Positions 26,032-33,301 of a stretch of 64,000 bases of DNA are shown here, piece after piece; the first letter of the stretch is position 1, and each line of letters starts with the position of its first letter. The position numbers and the translations under genes were made by a program. The notes beneath the pieces were generated by a model that saw only the letters and a program-made list of their open reading frames with translations, was not told the origin of the DNA and did no database searches. Source of the DNA: Comamonas testosteroni TK102 (GTDB taxonomy: Bacteria; Pseudomonadota; Gammaproteobacteria; Burkholderiales; Burkholderiaceae_C); the NCBI RefSeq assembly GCF_000739375.1, contig NZ_CP006704.1, forward strand, positions 1,798,001 to 1,862,000, in the 5' to 3' direction.

Positions 26032-27174
26032 ATGGCCGCCCTCTATCAACTTGCAGTGCTTGGTTCGCCAACCGACGCCCAGATTTCTGAGCTTGAAGAA
26101 ATCGTCGGAACTGCCGTAGGCATGTTCAACTTGCGACTAGGACATGAAGTTGGATGGGAGGTGCGCCCGGAAGCGTTTAACCCCGACCAACAGCGCTCAT
26201 CCGCTGCAGTATTTTTCGGGGGCGACAATCCACCTCTCGCCAACGTGGCGAAGTTGCTGGAGCGAGGCATCCCGCTACTGCCGATAGCATCCGACGTCAA
26301 TCGAGTTAACGCAGAGATTCCTGAATTACTGCGACCTCTCAACTGCTTAGCCTATGCCGCCAACGGGTCACAGCGTGTCGCGACCGCTTTACTTGAGTGT
26401 GCGGGGTTGCTACCTCGCCAGCGTCGAGTGTTCGTAAGTTACCGCCGGGGCGAAGCCCGTGAGGCAGCCTTGCAGCTCTTTGACGCCTTATCTGCTCGGC
26501 TATTCGATGTGTTTCTCGATACGCATGGGATTCCACCTGCGGAAGATTTTCAGACGATGCTATGGCATCGCCTTTGCGATTCCGACGTTCTTGTGATGCT
26601 TGACACGCCAGGCTACTTTGAAAGCCGCTGGACAAGCGCAGAGTTCGGACGCGCTCTGGCGAAAGGCATCAGCGTCTTACGGGTTGGCTGGCCAGACTGC
26701 ACGCCATCTGCGCGAACAGCCACCGCCAGTCGCGCAGAATTGTTGCCCGACGAAGTGGATGCGGCCACAGGACGCCTCGCGGACAGCGCTGTGGAGCGAA
26801 TCTGTCTACAGCTCGAAGAAGTTCGCAGCCAAAGCCATGCGGTCCGTTCCGTCAATCTAGTGAGCAATTTGCGCAACGCTATTCAAACGATTGGCGGTCA
26901 ACTTGTCGGCGTTGGACCGAACAAGGCGGTCTATATCCGACTGCCGGATGGCCGGAATGTCGTCGTCTACCCAACAGTTGGTGTCCCCACGTCGACCACG
27001 TTGCATGACGCATCCACCAATTCGCCAGATCAATCGGTTGCCGTCGTTTACGATCATGTTGGCTTGCATCCCCGGTGGCTGGGGCATTTGGACTGGCTGG
27101 GCCAGCATATCCACTCTGCGCGGTGGGTCAAAGCCAGCGAGGCTGGATGGCAATTTGCGGACTGGGAGGCCTGA
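26032..27174 (+). CDS. TIR-domain protein with extra N- and C-terminal domains
   Basis: A 380-residue protein. Residues 1-125 form an alpha/beta-looking domain that I do not recognise (LAVLGSPTDAQISELEEIVG, then FFGGDNPPLANVAKLLERGIPLLPI). Residues 131-220 are a TIR domain: RRVFVSYRRGEAREAALQLF, FDVFLDTHGIPPAEDFQTML, and SRWTSAEF with the putative NADase glutamate E204 four residues after W200. The last 110 residues (about 270-380) are a further unassigned domain. TIR proteins of this type are immune effectors or signal producers that consume NAD+. The next gene starts four bases later, so coexpression with the SLOG and ThsB-type genes is very likely. There is no membrane segment. Confidence 0.8.
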   Translation: MAALYQLAVLGSPTDAQISELEEIVGTAVGMFNLRLGHEVGWEVRPEAFNPDQQRSSAAVFFGGDNPPLANVAKLLERGIPLLPIASDVNRVNAEIPELLRPLNCLAYAANGSQRVATALLECAGLLPRQRRVFVSYRRGEAREAALQLFDALSARLFDVFLDTHGIPPAEDFQTMLWHRLCDSDVLVMLDTPGYFESRWTSAEFGRALAKGISVLRVGWPDCTPSARTATASRAELLPDEVDAATGRLADSAVERICLQLEEVRSQSHAVRSVNLVSNLRNAIQTIGGQLVGVGPNKAVYIRLPDGRNVVVYPTVGVPTSTTLHDASTNSPDQSVAVVYDHVGLHPRWLGHLDWLGQHIHSARWVKASEAGWQFADWEA

Positions 27175-27177
27175 ATC

Positions 27178-27765
27178 GTGAGCGCAATCTTCCTTTCAGC
27201 CAGTATCCCACTTGTCGGCCGCGGCTCGTATCACGAGACCGCCAATCCATTCCTCATCCAATGCGCTGTGAGGGAACTGGTCATGGCCGTCATTCGTCAG
27301 CACAAGATCGTGTGGGGAGGCCATCCCGCTATCACGCCTATGATCTGGAGCATTTGTGAGGATTTGGGTGTCGATTATTCTGGGGCCGTGGTTCTGTATC
27401 AGAGCACGTTCTTCAAGGATCGTTACCCGGAAGAAAACGACCGTTTTCACAATGTAGTATTCACCAATGCAGTTGCCGGTGACAGAGAGGCGAGCCTGCT
27501 GCTAATGCGGGAAGAAATGCTGTCGCGCGATGATCTCGTTGCCGCTGTTTTCATCGGCGGCATGGAAGGAGTGGAAGCCGAGCATGAACTCTTCAGGAAA
27601 TTCCACCCCGCCGCCAAAGTTCTGCCCGTACCGTCGCCAGGCGGGGCGGCCTTGAACTTGGCCAAAGATCAAGGTTATTTCGCCGATGCGGATCTTGGTG
27701 ATGTGGACTTCGCGCAACTCTTTCACACGCACCTCGCATTGAACATTCAAGGTGCAGCGAGTTGA
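27178..27765 (+). CDS. Stand-alone SLOG-fold protein
   Basis: A 195-residue protein with the Rossmann-like SLOG signature: IFLSASIP at the start, VWGGHPAITPMIWSI (45-59), AAVFIGGMEGVEAEHELF (122-139) and VPSPGGAALNLAK (151-163). SLOG domains bind nucleotide-derived ligands; in Thoeris ThsA the SLOG part senses the cyclic ADP-ribose-type signal made by the TIR protein. Here the SLOG domain stands alone, without the Sir2 or macro effector part. The start is GTG at 27178, with GGGAGG in the end of the TIR gene. Its partners are presumably the TIR proteins on either side. Confidence 0.75.
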   Translation: MSAIFLSASIPLVGRGSYHETANPFLIQCAVRELVMAVIRQHKIVWGGHPAITPMIWSICEDLGVDYSGAVVLYQSTFFKDRYPEENDRFHNVVFTNAVAGDREASLLLMREEMLSRDDLVAAVFIGGMEGVEAEHELFRKFHPAAKVLPVPSPGGAALNLAKDQGYFADADLGDVDFAQLFHTHLALNIQGAAS

Positions 27766-27806: not shown

Positions 27807-28292
27807 ATGCCACGGAAAATCTTCTATAGCTTCCACTATCAACGCGACAGTTGGCGCGCCTCCAAGATACGGAATATTGGTGTTGTTGAGGGCAACCAAC
27901 CAGCAAGCGATAACAAATGGGAAGAAGTGAAGCGAGGCGGCGAGGCCGCAATCAAGCGCTGGATCGACGATCAGCTGCAAGGACGGACATGCACAATTGT
28001 TCTGGTCGGAGCCGAAACGGCGAATCGCCCCTGGATTCGATATGAGATTGAGCAGTCATGGAATAGTGGCAAGGGACTCTTGGGGATACGAGTCCATAAG
28101 CTGCTGGACCACAACCAGCAACCATCAGTTGCCGGGGCCAATCCATTTGACTCATTTACCTTGAACGACGGTAGAAAGCTATCCACCGTCGTCCGCATGT
28201 ACGATCCACCAGGGGCCACGAGCAGTGCGGCCTATAACCACATCAGTGACAACCTGTCGGGCTGGATTGAAGCGGCGATCGCTGCGCGCTAA
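27807..28292 (+). CDS. ThsB-type TIR-like protein (MTH538/DUF1863)
   Basis: A 161-residue protein with the hallmark start of the ThsB/DUF1863 family: KIFYSFHYQRDSWRASKIRN, then IGVVEGNQPASDNKWEEVKR, AIKRWIDDQLQGRTCTIVLV and NRPWIRYEIEQSWNSGKG. In Thoeris, ThsB detects phage and makes an NAD+-derived signal; the glutamate in WIRYEIE would be the catalytic one. It follows the SLOG gene by 41 bp and ends convergently, 16 bp from the UDG-family gene. The symbol thsB is not given because a canonical ThsA is absent. Confidence 0.85.
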   Translation: MPRKIFYSFHYQRDSWRASKIRNIGVVEGNQPASDNKWEEVKRGGEAAIKRWIDDQLQGRTCTIVLVGAETANRPWIRYEIEQSWNSGKGLLGIRVHKLLDHNQQPSVAGANPFDSFTLNDGRKLSTVVRMYDPPGATSSAAYNHISDNLSGWIEAAIAAR

Positions 28293-28308: not shown

Positions 28309-28971
28309 TCAAAACAACGACCCAGTGCTCATGGGGCGCCCATAGAGCTCCGAGATTTGCCTCTGGAACTGGGTCTGTCCTCCATAGCTAGGATGCCTCA
28401 CGCAAATCACGGGTACGGAATCCGTGATGCGATGGGCCGCAGCGGCGGCATCGTTGCCGATGGCGACGATGCGAGAGGGACGTAGCAAGACAATGAGCTG
28501 TTGGAGCAGTTCTTCGCCGGCTCGCCTCTCACGCGCGTTGTGCTGCCGGTTGGTGAACGGATCTCCTGATTCGTGCGGATGCAGAGGGAAAACGTTCCAG
28601 AGGAAGATGCGGGCATCAATATGTTCCAGCATGCCCCATATGACCGCGGCGGTTCGTTCGGCCACAGCACTGCCTATCGTCGGCCGTTCGGCGACCTGGT
28701 CGAGATTCCAACGCCTAGCGTGCTGGCTTATGTGAAGGTCGTCGGTCAGGGCTAACCCAGTGCGGCGTCCTCCGCGATATCCGAGGTCTCGTCCAATCCA
28801 TATCGCGTCTACGGGTTCCTCGGTTGCACGACGCAACATGGCGGACAGTGCAGCAGCACGGCGACGTGGTGCATCGCGTCGATCATGAACTTCACAACGA
28901 TCCGAATACGGATTGAAGCAGTCTTCGAACTGCAGAGAAGCAACTGCATCAACGAACGGGTGGATCTTCAT
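28309..28971 (-). CDS. Uracil-DNA-glycosylase-superfamily protein
   Basis: A 220-residue protein with the UDG-superfamily layout: motif 1 as WIGRDLGYRGGRRTGLALT (58-76), NVFPLHPHESGDPFTNRQHN (126-145) and motif 2 as VRHPSYGGQTQFQRQI (201-216). Motif 1 has GRDLGY where many family members have GExPG, so the usual activating acidic residue is replaced or moved (Asp62). It is the last gene of the TIR-Nmad2-MazG-UDG operon, overlapping the MazG gene by ATGA. It may excise or bind a modified base; target unknown. Confidence 0.75.
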   Translation of the reverse strand: MKIHPFVDAVASLQFEDCFNPYSDRCEVHDRRDAPRRRAAALSAMLRRATEEPVDAIWIGRDLGYRGGRRTGLALTDDLHISQHARRWNLDQVAERPTIGSAVAERTAAVIWGMLEHIDARIFLWNVFPLHPHESGDPFTNRQHNARERRAGEELLQQLIVLLRPSRIVAIGNDAAAAAHRITDSVPVICVRHPSYGGQTQFQRQISELYGRPMSTGSLF

Positions 28972-30104
28972 TTTTCAGACTCAAGTGGCATGTATTTGAT
29001 GGTGCGTTGTTCTCGGTTTCCAATGATCCAGCCGCCTTGATTTTCCTTGAGCTGGCGAAAGACAGCATAGCCATCCAGGATTGCCTTTTCCCAGAGCTTT
29101 AGCGGACATTTCTCCACTTCGTAACCACTCACGAACTCACCAATGGTCTTGAGAACCCCAAGTGAGACCTTTTCCTGATTCTCGAAGAAATTCAGCTCCT
29201 TGGCTCTGGAGAAAATCCACGCTGAAAGCCCTTCTTCCACGACGATGGCCCGACCACTGTCCTGCTCTTCATCGTATTTCGGATTGCTCTTTCGCTTGTG
29301 CTTGATCAATGACCGCATCACAGGTGACCAGTGCAGGATTGCTGCATAAGAAAAGTGGAAGACATCATGGAACCGGTAGCCATCGCGATCGGCAATGTTG
29401 TCCGTCAGAGGGTCTCCAATGAATACGCCCTTCCATTGGAGGTAACTCTTGCCACTGCCTCGCTGATTGACCCGGATTTTGAAATCCCTGGGTAGCTGTT
29501 CCTCAATTCCAAACTCACTGTCGAAATCAAGGCCAGCCAGGTCTTCTGCCTGCGGCTCCAAGAACGCGCCGCGAGCTTTCCGGAGATTTCCGCGAGCCAC
29601 CTCAGAGAACGCAAGTTCGGCCGCATGAATTGCATCCAGGTAAGCCCGTGCGAAAGCAATCAAGTCTGCGCGTGCAGGCGTACTTCCAAGTAGCGCTGCC
29701 GCTGACTGCCCCAAACGCACCAAGGTGGCATCCAACGAAGCAGTCGCGGCGACAGGCACAGCGATATAGGCTAACGCACCTTCGGTGATGTCACTTGCAG
29801 CGCCCACATTCTTGAAGTTTCCGTGGTTCGCAGCTTCCGAGAATATCTCTTCGAGAGGAATCTGCAGGCGCCTGCAGATTGCAGCCAAATACCAGAGGGT
29901 GTCGCCAAACTCCTCTTCTGCCGCCTTCTTGAAACCCGGGTAAGCCGTTCTCTCTCGAACACTTTTCTTGGCCGTAGCCATTATGCCGCCGACTTCTCCG
30001 TATAGACCTTGGAGGACAGGATTGAAGTCATTCGGGTTGAGTACGTCTGTGGCTGCAATTTCCGCAGCGTAATCCGAGAGCAAGAGGGAGCCTTCCTTTT
30101 TCAT
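28968..30104 (-). CDS. MazG-type pyrophosphohydrolase fused to a large unknown domain
   Basis: A 378-residue protein. Residues 27-95 form a MazG-like all-helical NTP pyrophosphohydrolase core with the metal ligands in LQGLYGEVGGIMATAKK and AAEEEFGDTLWYLAAICRRL. Such enzymes cleave (d)NTPs, including non-canonical ones, to the monophosphate. The remaining 280 residues are not recognised; they contain RFHDVFHFSYAAILHWSP and a later AIVVEEGLSAWIFSRAK with conserved-looking His and Glu, perhaps a second, HD- or MazG-like helical domain. The start is three bases after the Nmad2 stop and the end overlaps the UDG gene, so coexpression is certain in practice. Confidence 0.75.
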   Translation of the reverse strand: MKKEGSLLLSDYAAEIAATDVLNPNDFNPVLQGLYGEVGGIMATAKKSVRERTAYPGFKKAAEEEFGDTLWYLAAICRRLQIPLEEIFSEAANHGNFKNVGAASDITEGALAYIAVPVAATASLDATLVRLGQSAAALLGSTPARADLIAFARAYLDAIHAAELAFSEVARGNLRKARGAFLEPQAEDLAGLDFDSEFGIEEQLPRDFKIRVNQRGSGKSYLQWKGVFIGDPLTDNIADRDGYRFHDVFHFSYAAILHWSPVMRSLIKHKRKSNPKYDEEQDSGRAIVVEEGLSAWIFSRAKELNFFENQEKVSLGVLKTIGEFVSGYEVEKCPLKLWEKAILDGYAVFRQLKENQGGWIIGNREQRTIKYMPLESEK

Positions 30105-30107
30105 CGG

Positions 30108-30734
30108 TCACCTGCGAAGAGTCAGCCATTCGAATGGAGCGCCCTGATAACCGCTCACGTCAAAGCTGCGAATCCATTTCTCAAGGTTCGCAATCAGTTG
30201 CGCATCGTCAAAGGTGGTTAGACCTATTCCCGTTTTGCATAAGGGCCGATCTTGCTGGTCTTTCAGTTCCTCGGGAAATTCCGGACCCTCGCCCCCGAAG
30301 TACACAAAATCATTACTGATCAGGACCCTGTTGACGCCCGTATCACGGGCAACATGGTCCGGGTTGAGCGTGCCATTGGGGCGGGAATGAAATGAGTCTC
30401 GCTGCTGCCAAGCGGCTCCAGGCGCGGCCCTGAAGTAGATGTTGTCCCCGCAACTTTGCTTCCGACTCCCATTGCGGTACGGCATCTTGTATTCAAACCG
30501 TGGATCTGCGCCATATTCGTCGAATGTCATCGCCTCGGTAACGCGCATCGCGTACACGAGACGCCCGCCACGTCGGACAGTTCTATCATTGCTGCCACTG
30601 CCGACCACCCAATCACCGATGTCAGCGGATCGGCGGATATTGGGTTTGCAGGTCGCAAGCGTGCAGTAGCCATAGAAAGGGTTGGGCGCGAAACCACTGT
30701 CGTATCGCACCACATAGGAGTGAATGCGAGCCAT
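30108..30734 (-). CDS. Nmad2 (nucleotide-modification-associated domain 2) protein
   Basis: A 208-residue protein that I recognise as Nmad2-like from its start YVVRYDSGFAPNPFYGYCTL, CKPNIRRSADIGDWVVGSGS and RGGRLVYAMRVTEAMTFDEY. Nmad families were described near enzymes that make hypermodified bases in phages and bacteria; biochemical activity is not established. The true start is MARIHSYVV, whose ATG shares a base with the TIR stop (TGATG), not the longer upstream frame. The coupling to a TIR gene on one side and MazG and UDG on the other suggests that the four proteins act on the same nucleotide or base. Confidence 0.75.
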   Translation of the reverse strand: MARIHSYVVRYDSGFAPNPFYGYCTLATCKPNIRRSADIGDWVVGSGSNDRTVRRGGRLVYAMRVTEAMTFDEYGADPRFEYKMPYRNGSRKQSCGDNIYFRAAPGAAWQQRDSFHSRPNGTLNPDHVARDTGVNRVLISNDFVYFGGEGPEFPEELKDQQDRPLCKTGIGLTTFDDAQLIANLEKWIRSFDVSGYQGAPFEWLTLRR

Positions 30735-31201
30735 CAGCAGGGATGCCGCTTGAGTGGAACCGGGTCGCAGGCACCACCGTCTGGCTTTTCCCACGAGTCC
30801 TTCCCGTTGATCGCGTCAATGATCGCATCGCCGTTCCACCCAACCAAGGCGTCGGCATATTCTTTCAGGGCCTCTGGAAGGTCGCATTCCTTCTCGCCAT
30901 GCTCCCAAACACCGACAATGCGCTTGCCCTGTTTGGCCGCATATTCGATTTCCCAGTTCACCCAATCGCTATTCTTGGTCTGGGGCGAAACGTAGCAAAT
31001 GAACACTCCAGCCCAGTTGATGGCAGGGGCAAGGATCTGCGTCTTTATGTAGTGCTCATCGGTGGCATTGTTGAACTTCCCTGTATGGATGGAGGAATCC
31101 CTGACCTCGATCCCTTTTGGAGCTAACAGATCCTTCAGCTTCTGGAGTCCGTGATCGTCCTTATGGACATGGCTGATGAACACGTTCCTTTTCTCTGCCA
31201 C
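30734..31201 (-). CDS. ThsB-type TIR-domain protein, second kind
   Basis: A 155-residue single-domain TIR protein: RNVFISHVHKDDHGLQKLKDLL, then KGIEVRDSSIHTGKFNNATDEHYIKTQI, AGVFICYVSPQTKNSDWVNWEIEYA and GKRIVGVWEHG. The putative NADase glutamate is E84 in DWVNWEIE. It differs clearly from the two plus-strand TIR proteins. The start is GTG at 31201 with GGAGGTGACAG upstream. It heads the minus-strand operon with Nmad2, MazG and UDG, so it is likely either its sensor/signal generator or its toxic effector. Confidence 0.82.
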   Translation of the reverse strand: MAEKRNVFISHVHKDDHGLQKLKDLLAPKGIEVRDSSIHTGKFNNATDEHYIKTQILAPAINWAGVFICYVSPQTKNSDWVNWEIEYAAKQGKRIVGVWEHGEKECDLPEALKEYADALVGWNGDAIIDAINGKDSWEKPDGGACDPVPLKRHPC

Positions 31202-31289: not shown

Positions 31290-31592
31290 TCAAATAATTG
31301 CCTGCAAACCCTTGTCGGCGATGACGTTGAGCAGCTTGAGGGCCGGCCCGGTGGGATGGGTTTCGCCTTGCTCCCACTTTCGCACGGTCGACGCGGTGGT
31401 GTGCAGGTGAAGTGCGAACACCGGCTGGCTGAACTTCAACCGTTCGCGCAGGTGTTTGATGTCGGCAGCACTGAACTCCCGCACCGGCGGCGGGCAGATC
31501 GCGTCGAACTCGCGCATCGTCACCTTGCCGATCGCTCCCGCTTCGTGGAGCGCAGCCAGGTCGCCACGCAGGGATTCAATGATCTTGCTCAC
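31290..31592 (-). CDS. HigA-like XRE antitoxin
   Basis: A 100-residue protein with a C-terminal Cro/CI-type helix-turn-helix (LRERLKFSQPVFALHLHTTASTVRKWEQG, about 51-79) and the HigA-2-like ending PTGPALKLLNVIADKGL. The start is GTG at 31592, preceded by GGAGG at the right distance; it overlaps the end of the toxin gene. In this toxin-first order the antitoxin represses the operon through the palindrome upstream of the toxin. The pair would stabilise the ICE. Confidence 0.85.
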   Translation of the reverse strand: MSKIIESLRGDLAALHEAGAIGKVTMREFDAICPPPVREFSAADIKHLRERLKFSQPVFALHLHTTASTVRKWEQGETHPTGPALKLLNVIADKGLQAII

Positions 31593-31959
31593 AATGCACC
31601 TCCAATAACACGCCCGAGTGCAACGCCTTCGACAAAGCCTCGGCGGACAGTTCCAGGAACACCTTGCCGGCGAATTGCAGCGCCTTCTTCTCGTCCTGCG
31701 TGATATTCGCCTTGTCGCTCTTGGGGAACCCATGCAGGAATACGTAGCGGCTGCCGATCCGGGCCGACAGCAGCGTGCGGTAGCCGCCGCTCTTGCCGCC
31801 GCCGGATCGGGCAACCCGCTTCTTGTAGAGGAAGCCGCCCAAGTCCGCGTCAATCAGACCGCTTTCCATCTCTTGAACCGCCTTGCACAAGGCAGCATCA
31901 GGCAGCTTTTCGCCCGCCTGCCACCGTGCAAAGTCCTTCCGCTTGAGGACGTGGGTCAT
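31576..31959 (-). CDS. RelE/HigB-2-like toxin (COG4737 type)
   Basis: A 127-residue toxin recognised by FARWQAGEKLPDAALCKAVQEM, GLIDADLGGFLYKKRVAR, GGKSGGYRTLLSARIGSRYVFLHGF and SDKANITQDEKKALQ. The family members are ribosome-dependent mRNA nucleases. I start at MTHVLKRKDF (31959), with GGAGGT five bases upstream, and reject the 43-residue upstream extension. It is followed by its antitoxin with a 17-bp overlap. Only the integrase separates the pair from the ICE end. Confidence 0.87.
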   Translation of the reverse strand: MTHVLKRKDFARWQAGEKLPDAALCKAVQEMESGLIDADLGGFLYKKRVARSGGGKSGGYRTLLSARIGSRYVFLHGFPKSDKANITQDEKKALQFAGKVFLELSAEALSKALHSGVLLEVHCEQDH

Positions 31960-31977
31960 CTTGACCTCCAAACTATA

Positions 31978-31988
31978 CCCGTAACGGG
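31978..31988. promoter_or_regulatory. Toxin-antitoxin operator palindrome
   Basis: CCCGTAACGGG is an inverted repeat (CCCGT/ACGGG around a central A), within ATACCC...GGGCATA, 18 bases upstream of the toxin start. This fits the autoregulatory site of a HigBA/RelBE-type operon. Confidence 0.65.
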
Positions 31989-32098
31989 CATACTTTTCCA
32001 GTCCCCAGTGCGATGCACGGGCGGGGAGGGCTGCCGAACCGATTGGCGTAACGGCGACACGGCAATCAGGGCCGACATGCCGAGGCACTGGTCACCGA

Positions 32099-33301
32099 TC
32101 ATGCGGTCACCTCTTTGGGTTCTTGCCGCGTGCCGACGACCGACTTGCGCCGGCTGGCTACCAACTCGGCTGCCTTACGCACCGGGTCGTCCTCGGTGTG
32201 GACGTAGCGCATGAACATCGCCACGGTCTTGTGCGCGGTTAGCGCCATGCCGACCTTGACGGGGATGCCGGAATTGGCAATGTCGGTCGCTGAGCGGTGG
32301 CGTATGCCGTGGGTGCCAACCTTCGGCACGCCGGCGCGATCAAGGATTCGGCGCCACGCCTGATAGTAGGAATGGGGGCCGAGCGGCTTGTCATGGTCGA
32401 GGATGGCCGGGCATACGTAGGGCGAATTGCCGTAGCGAGGTGCATTCGTCAGCAACCGGCGGGCTTCCTCGCTCAACGGCTTGGACATATCGCCCGTCTT
32501 GCTGTCCGGCCAGACAACCCGGCCATTGGGCAAGTCGAGCCAATCCCACTGCAACAGCAGGATCTCCGACATGCGGGCCGCGAACTCGAATTGCAGCCGG
32601 ACGGCCAGCAGATAGATGGGATGTTCCAGGCCCTCGGCCTCGGCTTTGTCCAAGTAGGCGAACAAGCTGACCATCTGCTCGTCGGTGATAAGGCGGGTCG
32701 AGCCTTTCTCCGAGTACTTGGGTACGTGACAGCAAGGATTGGAGCCATCGGGCCGGTAGCCCCACAGTTCGGCCAGGTTGAACATCTTGCGGACGAGCGA
32801 CAGTACGCGGTTGGCCTGCGTGGGGGACCTCTCCATGCGCTTCATCAGCGCGGTGATGTCGTGGCGCGTGACCTCGTGAACCTTCTTGCTGCCGAAGGCT
32901 GGGATGACGAAGTTGTCGATCTGGTACTGGTAGCTGGCCTGGGTGCTGGGCTTGTTGTGCGGCTTGGAGTGGTCATCCATGAACCGGCCGCACAGTTCCT
33001 TGACCGTCGGCGCCTTGCGGGCTTCGGCCTTGTCGAGTCCGGGATCGCCCCCGCGCCGGACTTCGGCCAGCCAGTCTTGGGCCAGCGACCGGGCCTGTTC
33101 GACCGTCAGCTCGCCGAACTGGCCGAGTGCCGGCTTGCGCCGCACGCCGGAGTTCGTGCGGTACTGAACCATGAAGACCTTGCGGCCCGTTGGTGTTATC
33201 TTGCACAAGAAGCCCGGAACGAGCGTATCCCGGAGTTCCACATCGCAGGTTTGCGCCTGCGCCGTGTCAACGACGGACTTGGTGAGTTTGATCTTCGCCA
33301 T
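32099..33301 (-). CDS. int: Tyrosine integrase of the ICE
   Basis: A 400-residue P4-type integrase. The N-terminal Arm-DNA-binding domain (DUF4102-like) spans about 1-90 (VELRDTLVPGFLCKITPTGRK), the core-binding domain about 95-190 (RFMDDHSKPHNKPSTQASYQ), and the catalytic domain about 205-385. The catalytic residues are visible: Arg in FAARMSEILLLQWDW, His-x-x-Arg in THGIRHRSATD, His in TAHKT and Tyr in MRYVHTED. The ATG is preceded by AGGAG. The gene lies just inside the right end of the element and points into it, next to a tRNA 3' end, the usual position. It starts 189 bp from that tRNA fragment; a GGCCCC/GGGGCC hairpin lies at 33317-33335. Confidence 0.93.
   Translation of the reverse strand: MAKIKLTKSVVDTAQAQTCDVELRDTLVPGFLCKITPTGRKVFMVQYRTNSGVRRKPALGQFGELTVEQARSLAQDWLAEVRRGGDPGLDKAEARKAPTVKELCGRFMDDHSKPHNKPSTQASYQYQIDNFVIPAFGSKKVHEVTRHDITALMKRMERSPTQANRVLSLVRKMFNLAELWGYRPDGSNPCCHVPKYSEKGSTRLITDEQMVSLFAYLDKAEAEGLEHPIYLLAVRLQFEFAARMSEILLLQWDWLDLPNGRVVWPDSKTGDMSKPLSEEARRLLTNAPRYGNSPYVCPAILDHDKPLGPHSYYQAWRRILDRAGVPKVGTHGIRHRSATDIANSGIPVKVGMALTAHKTVAMFMRYVHTEDDPVRKAAELVASRRKSVVGTRQEPKEVTA

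Follow-up and report, generated by a model that had tools for sequence, protein, structure and literature searches.

A TIR-Nmad2-MazG_C-UDG operon that travels with SLOG effectors, a candidate signal-making arm of Thoeris-like systems

In Thoeris the messenger is received by the SLOG domain of ThsA. Type I Thoeris pairs the TIR protein ThsB with ThsA, a SIR2-SLOG protein, and type III Thoeris is recognised by the presence of ThcA together with a ThcB protein. On the side of DNA bases, two papers (PMC11078745, PMC13160076) describe Brig1 and Brig3, UDG-superfamily or related glycosylases, and report that the partner enzyme of Brig3 first removes a sugar from the base. The DefensePredictor paper (PMC13092281) places MazG, MazG-C, NMAD, and UDG in eight unvalidated predicted systems (section 8, Fig. 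6F legend), labels MazG-C 'a predicted nucleotide kinase', and reports validated systems containing thymidylate synthase and 5-hydroxymethyluracil kinase (section 5); TIR and Thoeris are not mentioned in its main text. Here we describe a four-gene operon of Comamonas testosteroni TK102 that encodes TIR, Nmad2, MazG_C, and UDG-like proteins on the minus strand at 28309-31201 of a 64,000 bp window, the window being the whole stretch of DNA analysed (positions 1,798,001-1,862,000 of one 6.06 Mb contig).

The four genes recur as a unit with SLOG proteins of several kinds beside them, and we consider it probable that this core and the SLOG effectors are linked in function. Because the core travels with such effectors the operon resembles the part of Thoeris-type systems that makes the signal, rather than the free-standing four-gene system with a TIR alarm that was envisaged in the original prediction, which had overlooked a type III Thoeris set (ThcB4, ThcA, and a third TIR protein) on the plus strand 16 bp away. 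The operon genes are as follows.

30734..31201, minus strand: ThsB-like TIR protein, 155 residues, GTG start, putative catalytic Glu84, last residue Cys155
30108..30734, minus strand: Nmad2 protein, 208 residues counted from the ATG at 30734 (PF18753, E 9e-74)
28968..30104, minus strand: protein with a MazG-like N-terminal half and a MazG_C domain, 378 residues (PF18722, E 1e-82, residues 193-374)
28309..28971, minus strand: UDG-superfamily protein, 220 residues (PF03167, E 2.8e-7, residues 107-200)

All four open reading frames (ORFs) are present at the predicted positions and their families are recovered by Pfam; the coupling and the junctions also agree with what had been predicted. The TIR protein matches PF08937 (ThsB_TIR, E 4.6e-22) and, over its full length, the PADLOC ThsB model PDLC00418 (312 bits), is related to the ThsB structures 6lhy and 9b7d, and has a Shine-Dalgarno-like GGAGGTGA upstream of its GTG start. 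The listed Nmad2 ORF runs on to a GTG at 30794, and the Pfam match begins at the ATG at 30734; with the ATG start the TIR and Nmad2 genes have one base in common (TGATG), and with the GTG start they overlap by 61 bp. The Nmad2 and MazG genes are separated by a 3 bp gap, and the MazG and UDG genes overlap by 4 bp (ATGA). The N-terminal part of the MazG protein is only distantly MazG-like, with dCTP pyrophosphatase/MazG-type solved structures as its hmmsearch matches (best E 1.9e-6) and no match to the Pfam MazG domain at a threshold of E 1; its C-terminal part, previously described as 280 residues of unknown character, is largely the Pfam domain MazG_C. In the UDG-like protein the Pfam match is confined to the C-terminal part, and the best matches in a structure library are UDG entries that are not significant (E 0.14-0.16).

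Conservation was examined by scanning genomes with an alignment of MazG proteins, from which the best 80 of at least 438 confirmed relatives were used; with further loci from plasmids, the same genome (two copies), sampled genomes, and viral contigs these make 95 MazG loci, falling into 72 clusters at 90% MazG identity (individual loci are cited by L number). By ORF coordinates the complete TIR-Nmad2-MazG_C-UDG set is present on one strand and in this order in 45 of the 72 non-redundant MazG_C loci, and gene calls bear out the order in 40 of these, the other five having one gene missed by the caller. The rest comprise three loci that show no UDG, 12 with MazG_C-UDG, seven with MazG_C alone, and five without a recognised TIR, of which two end at a contig edge and three hold a TIR-like gene. 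Junctions overlap or have gaps of no more than 30 bp in nearly all of the 40 loci (TIR/Nmad2 in 39, Nmad2/MazG in 37, MazG/UDG in 37). The fixed order and strand in 45 of 72 loci thus indicate that the four-gene linkage is not due to chance, and provide the conserved co-occurrence on which the original prediction had been made to depend. Complete cores come from named sources in six phyla (Pseudomonadota, Acidobacteriota, Nitrospirota, Binatota, Chloroflexota, and Omnitrophota), and in 41 loci the four proteins co-diverge, with pairwise-distance correlations from r 0.60 (TIR-UDG) to 0.89 (MazG-UDG) that were equalled in none of 500 permutations for any protein pair. The unit is rare: a sample of 369 genomes of the class contained MazG_C in four, and a sample of 398 genomes of the phylum contained Nmad2 in six, both counts taking in the Comamonas genome itself. 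A DNA search of E. coli genomes gave no match to the operon, phage records gave a single partial MazG match, and viral contigs yielded 14 MazG and seven Nmad2 loci.

Five SLOG effector architectures, defined by de novo clustering of neighbours together with Pfam, NCBIfam, and PADLOC, are found beside the core. The first is ThcB4 with ThcA (SLOG cluster 3), the second a 417-residue TIR protein with a 289-residue SLOG cluster 2 protein, and the third a TIR-SLOG2 fusion of ~675 residues encoded between Nmad2 and MazG, and hence within the operon itself (L063, L069, L072). The fourth is a patatin phospholipase with SLOG2, which in L021 also exceeds the NCBIfam CBASS lipase cut-off, and the fifth is SIR2-STALD, a ThsA-like SIR2-SLOG protein that directly adjoins the core in L003, L041, L042, and L045 (L042 by custom profile only). 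The L045 effector matches PADLOC ThsA over its length (499 bits) and lies just upstream of the core TIR gene. For a flank-controlled comparison a cluster had to extend 1.9 kb or more beyond the core on the low side and 1.3 kb or more on the high side, which is less than the 2.5 kb searched; 59 clusters qualified and 13 of the 72 were excluded. A SLOG gene lies no farther than 2.5 kb from the core in 35 of the 40 TIR-bearing clusters versus 0 of the 19 TIR-less ones. Within 6 kb and with no flank control the figures are 39 of 48 and 2 of 24, the two TIR-less exceptions being a fusion-type operon cut by its contig (L070) and a locus with an opposite-strand TIR-Nmad2 pair beside ThcA (L085). Parsimony on the best MazG tree requires a minimum of nine effector changes among the 35 SLOG-bearing loci when scored by architecture, and six when scored by the SLOG family of the nearest protein. 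A SLOG partner that is kept while its type changes is expected if the partner reads a messenger made by the TIR protein, and this change of partner is stronger evidence for the SLOG link than the contrast between TIR-bearing and TIR-less loci.

In the window the SLOG partner is provided by a plus-strand gene set convergent with the operon, the stop codon of the third TIR gene lying 16 bp from that of the UDG gene.

26032..27174, plus strand: ThcB4, type III Thoeris TIR protein, 380 residues (NF058526, 484 bits, cut-off 220)
27178..27765, plus strand: ThcA, SLOG cluster 3 protein, 195 residues (NF058525, 256 bits, cut-off 110; PF18180, E 8e-81)
27807..28292, plus strand: third TIR protein, 161 residues (PF08937, E 2e-29)

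These genes supply the ThcA and ThcB proteins of type III Thoeris separately from the minus-strand operon. In PADLOC the third TIR protein matches both ThsB PDLC00433 (237 bits) and PDC-M50B (211 bits). ThcA is the likely signal receptor or effector in the window.

Several residues of the core proteins are strongly conserved. Of 50 aligned TIR rows, 47 have Glu84 at the catalytic-type position and 48 have Cys155; the three without Glu84 are TIR-like proteins with Ala. Each locus is represented in this alignment by its highest-scoring TIR within 5.5 kb, which in a few loci, such as L073, may be the wrong one. A further 12 TIR or TIR-like rows all have a Cys at the end or a few residues before it. 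Seven loci (L074, L075, L130, L183, L186, L188, and L197) encode degenerate TIR-like proteins that have lost the SH..D motif, and in five of the seven the Glu84 column is also lost (Ala in L074, L075, and L130, Val in L186, Gly in L197; Glu is kept in L183 and L188). The Cys tail is retained in all seven, mostly as K/R-x-x-C or similar, and no SLOG gene is seen near any of them, with flanks shorter than 2.5 kb on at least one side in L074, L130, and L197. We suggest that the TIR fold has two jobs, a structural one in which its tail would engage Nmad2 or the base arm and an enzymatic one that would be tied to the SLOG effectors. D62 and H193 of the UDG-like protein, which we tentatively equate with the catalytic Asp and His residues in the UDG motifs, are present in 56 and 57 of 57 rows, respectively, and the surrounding motif residues are near-invariant. 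E37, E64, E65, and D68 of the MazG half are kept in 71 of 72 homologues. In the ExxE...ExxD pattern, which provides the four acidic metal ligands of MazG and dCTP pyrophosphatase enzymes, the second Glu is mostly replaced, as described below. Near-invariant residues of the MazG_C half are H246, D247, H250, D282, R285, E291, and E329.

A sample taken with Nmad2 as the query, which avoids the bias of a MazG query, provides a second view of the locus. It contains 22 loci, 17 from plasmid records and five from other genomes, and a TIR or TIR-like partner lies beside Nmad2 in 15, all of which have MazG_C and/or a 5-hydroxymethyldeoxyuridine (5-hmdU) DNA kinase within 5 kb. The other seven lack a TIR, and none has MazG_C or the kinase; in two of these, L191 and L192, the match to Nmad2 is itself weak or incomplete (57-71 bits). 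The contrast of 15 of 15 with 0 of 7 indicates that the base arm is swapped too, and four base modules are found beside the same TIR-Nmad2 pair. These are MazG_C-UDG; a thymidylate-synthase-like protein with a TylF-type methyltransferase and the 5-hmdU kinase (L113 by Pfam, L179 and L185 by custom profiles, the L179 genes being annotated as thymidylate synthase, O-methyltransferase, and nucleotide kinase); the kinase with MazG_C (L180, from a cyanobacterium, and L184, from an actinomycete, where the kinase gene is on the opposite strand); and, in Parabacteroides (L182), the kinase with a radical SAM protein in one operon with TIR-Nmad2. A SLOG gene is present in 8 of the 12 loci of this sample with an intact TIR and in none of the three with a degenerate one.

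Among the seven Nmad2 loci on viral contigs L194, L195, L196, and L200 are of types already met, and L198 and L199 have Nmad2 with no TIR, MazG_C, or kinase. The seventh, L197:1-2360, has in a row genes for a dCTP-deaminase-like protein, a TIR-like protein (tail KRNKC), Nmad2, and UDG, and is possibly a provirus. In L113:596-3168 genes for a short Piwi-domain protein and a SMEK-domain protein lie beside the thymidylate-synthase-methyltransferase-kinase and TIR-Nmad2 genes. MazG_C relatives outside the core keep similar company: near L126, which lacks the core, lie genes for HMUDK_hel (by Pfam), thymidylate-synthase-like, and dCTP-deaminase-like proteins, L127 (custom profile) and L131 (Pfam) also have HMUDK_hel genes, and in L116 Nmad2 adjoins Nmad3. 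The predicted link to modified-nucleotide metabolism is supported by these associations, and by the company it keeps the nucleotide arm would belong to 5-hydroxymethylpyrimidine-type chemistry, which is guilt by association.

We propose, at about even odds for the scheme as a whole, that the operon provides sensing and signal production, one half of a Thoeris-like anti-phage system in which a base-surveillance arm would act on a SLOG effector. MazG_C and the UDG-like protein would process modified pyrimidine nucleotides or bases, and Nmad2 would recognise the resulting product or the modified base while holding the TIR subunit by its conserved C-terminal cysteine tail. With the ligand present the TIR protein would turn NAD+ into a nucleotide messenger, which the adjacent SLOG protein (here ThcA with ThcB4) would bind such that infection is stopped. 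The gene set with its order, coupling, and wide conservation, the co-divergence, the interchangeable SLOG neighbours, the alternative base modules beside the TIR-Nmad2 pair, and the conserved residues are observed; the ligand, the direction of the signal, the role of the tail, all enzyme activity, and the anti-phage effect are steps that we infer. A broader proposal, which we put forward tentatively, is that the core represents a three-tier immune class spread over several phyla, with swappable base enzymes feeding a fixed Nmad2-TIR reader switched by its Cys tail, and swappable SLOG effectors downstream; the base enzymes (MazG_C-UDG, thymidylate-synthase-methyltransferase-5-hmdU kinase, kinase-MazG_C, and kinase-radical SAM) would be of the DNA-hypermodification kind.

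If this broader proposal is true, the modification chemistry of the phages themselves would be the trigger of the bacterial alarm. What fires the TIR protein is a question of Thoeris research, and here, in a widespread version, candidate sensor genes are bound to a TIR gene by operon structure and are linked through their neighbours with modified-base chemistry. Base-excision defence, as in Brig, would be joined to TIR-SLOG signalling, two fields that are separate, and the locus raises directly the question of whether phages with modified pyrimidines trigger TIR. The series of swaps in both directions, in the base arm and in the effector arm, could show which messenger suits which SLOG domain.

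Several points weigh against the proposed scheme. The contrast in SLOG content between TIR-bearing and TIR-less loci is confounded by phylogeny, with one independent pair on the tree, such that the 59 cases are not independent; the MazG tree was built by a quick method and has stars on 23 of its 69 inner branches; and a portion of the nine effector changes are gains of patatin-SLOG beside ThcA and not replacements. No SLOG protein is detected in 5 of the 40 flanked TIR-bearing loci (L034, L062, L064, L071, L076), nor is one seen in 4 of the 12 intact-TIR loci of the Nmad2 sample (L179, L180, L182, L185). Both TIR and SLOG genes accumulate in defence islands anyway, the core is absent beside ThcA in all seven of the other sampled ThcA genomes (six over the cut-off, some contigs being short), and ThcB4 and the third TIR protein could activate ThcA without the operon. 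Nmad2 is found without TIR in L114-L117, L189, L191, L192, L198, and L199, and L197 has the TIR-like protein, Nmad2, UDG, and dCTP-deaminase-like protein with no MazG_C or kinase seen up to a contig end 0.6 kb away. In 68 of the 72 MazG homologues Ser or Gly takes the place of the second Glu of ExxE, leaving one ligand missing; the MazG half may bind nucleotides rather than cut them, or use another ligand, and the earlier suggestion that MazG clears the dNTP pool is weakened. Nothing was found when Nmad2 was compared with EVE and ASCH profiles, and the idea that it is an EVE/PUA-like base reader received no support: hhalign gave probabilities of 0.2% with six EVE loci (left from 24 of 25 found) and 0.1% with three ASCH loci (left from four of five found), against 0.1-0.8% for five unrelated control profiles. 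The other EVE loci dropped out at a crude choice of frame or at trimming.

A serious though rather doubtful alternative is that two separate systems lie side by side, the UDG-like glycosylase excising a modified phage base in the manner of Brig1 and Brig3 with MazG_C and Nmad2 assisting and the TIR protein serving as an auxiliary NADase, and Thoeris being a mere neighbour. It stays serious because ThcA occurs mostly without the core, as in the seven ThcA genomes above, and because MazG_C-UDG exists without TIR, the pair being free of TIR, Nmad2, and SLOG in 11 of 72 clusters. The conservation of D62 and H193 is in keeping with it, as are the reports (PMC11078745, PMC13160076) that Brig1 and Brig3 are able to defend alone and that brig1 lies near a ThsA-like gene. 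A mere neighbour does not account well for the changes of SLOG architecture beside the same core, the TIR-SLOG2 fusion inside the operon, or the SIR2-SLOG genes directly adjacent to the core in four loci.

We regard as improbable a host guard, in which a low-level modified nucleotide or host DNA base made by the enzyme arm keeps Nmad2-TIR off and its removal, when a phage attacks the nucleotide pools or the host DNA, releases the TIR protein. The enzymes beside TIR-Nmad2 in L113, L179, L180, L182, L184, and L185 (thymidylate-synthase-like, methyltransferase, 5-hmdU kinase, and MazG_C) are of biosynthetic type and suit signal making at least as well as detection, whereas the UDG-like glycosylase in the window version fits removal better than making.

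The cassette is mobile. A tyrosine integrase lies at the edge of the cassette and probably serves mobility and not the function of the operon.

32099..33301, minus strand: tyrosine integrase (PF00589, E 9e-18)

Genes for a RelE-like toxin (PF06296) and a helix-turn-helix (HTH) protein are placed between the operon and the integrase (31290-32088) and are probably a cassette maintenance pair. Counterparts of the block at ~26.0-31.2 kb, with DNA identities of 80-95%, occur in Halomonas, Vreelandella, Tistrella, Coralloluteibacterium, Accumulibacter, and Methyloversatilis, a block including the integrase (25.66-33.5 kb) is shared with L015, L016, and L017, and Cupriavidus basilensis (L011) has a 13.5 kb match at 99.6%. 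The same genome contains a second, diverged copy of the whole arrangement (L009, G000:C1:3785000-3804000), in which the MazG protein is 87% identical and genes for ThcA, ThcB4, and two additional TIR proteins are also present. The 90% cluster of this copy includes MazG_C loci from Achromobacter, Stutzerimonas, and Variovorax (L022, L023, L024).

Other associations of the component genes were also observed. An uncharacterised family of 162-228-residue proteins is encoded near SLOG-less cores in L048, L062, L068, L071, L077, and L125, the L048 and L071 proteins having hydrophobic segments at their N termini; in L062 and L071, which show no SLOG, its members (166-224 residues) are immediately upstream. 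Its custom profile also matches part of ~860-870-residue proteins in L178, where the annotation is patatin-like phospholipase, and in L179, and the family may be a further effector or part of one. MazG_C, mostly with UDG and without TIR or Nmad2, is found in L005-L007, L082-L084, and L086-L090 with a different set of neighbours, consisting of a 262-residue protein, a C1 peptidase, an M78 peptidase with an I42 inhibitor domain, an HTH protein, and sometimes a dCTP-deaminase-like protein, and this looks like a separate system. TIR-less Nmad2 genes follow a gene of ~464 codons in L114:7974-9967 and L189:6595-8576, which encodes a YncE-like beta-propeller in L114; cytochrome and molybdopterin oxidoreductase genes lie in the neighbourhood in L189, and a non-defence role of Nmad2 is possible there. 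A toxin-antidote or nucleotide-housekeeping operon with no anti-phage role, for which these contexts and the RelE-like/HTH pair and integrase alongside the operon might speak, is very unlikely, since housekeeping enzymes would be less patchy than an operon that is rare (MazG_C in 4 of 369 genomes), carried on plasmids and cassettes, and mostly beside defence-type effectors.

The literature searched yielded no paper joining Nmad2, MazG, and TIR, although Burroughs 2015 (PMC4678834) may cover part of this, and neither a laboratory test of the operon nor the phrase 'type III Thoeris' was found in it. Nmad2, MazG_C, and the UDG-like protein have no match in PADLOC 2023 at E 1. The claim of an undescribed system holds only in part, since the DefensePredictor paper (PMC13092281) already predicts systems with MazG, MazG-C, NMAD, and UDG. 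Part of the gene set has therefore been predicted by others, and the Thoeris-like variant is otherwise apparently new as far as was searched.

Both Thoeris features discernible at the sequence level, the conserved TIR Glu84 and an adjacent SLOG effector, are present, and the system is predicted to work like Thoeris with an NAD+-derived messenger. The operon resembles type I Thoeris in its ThsB-family TIR with a catalytic-type Glu and in the SIR2-STALD effectors of L003, L041, L042, and L045, and differs in adding three coupled genes (Nmad2, MazG_C, and the UDG-like gene) and in its interchangeable effector. With type III Thoeris it shares the proximity of ThcA and ThcB4, both over the curated cut-offs of NF058525 and NF058526, with a third TIR gene between; in contrast, its own four proteins do not match those two models, and the operon is not a regular part of such loci. 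DNA hypermodification-type clusters (5-hmdU kinase, thymidylate-synthase-like, MazG-like) are approached through the MazG_C relatives in L126, L127, and L131, whereas the operon enzymes adjoin TIR and SLOG genes. For the UDG arm the nearest idea would be Brig1 and Brig3-BapA, although no significant sequence link came out of the structure library, where the best hits were the UDG entries at E 0.14-0.16; Brig1 is a UDG-superfamily protein and Brig3 is described as keeping the DNA glycosylase logic, to which the operon adds TIR and Nmad2.

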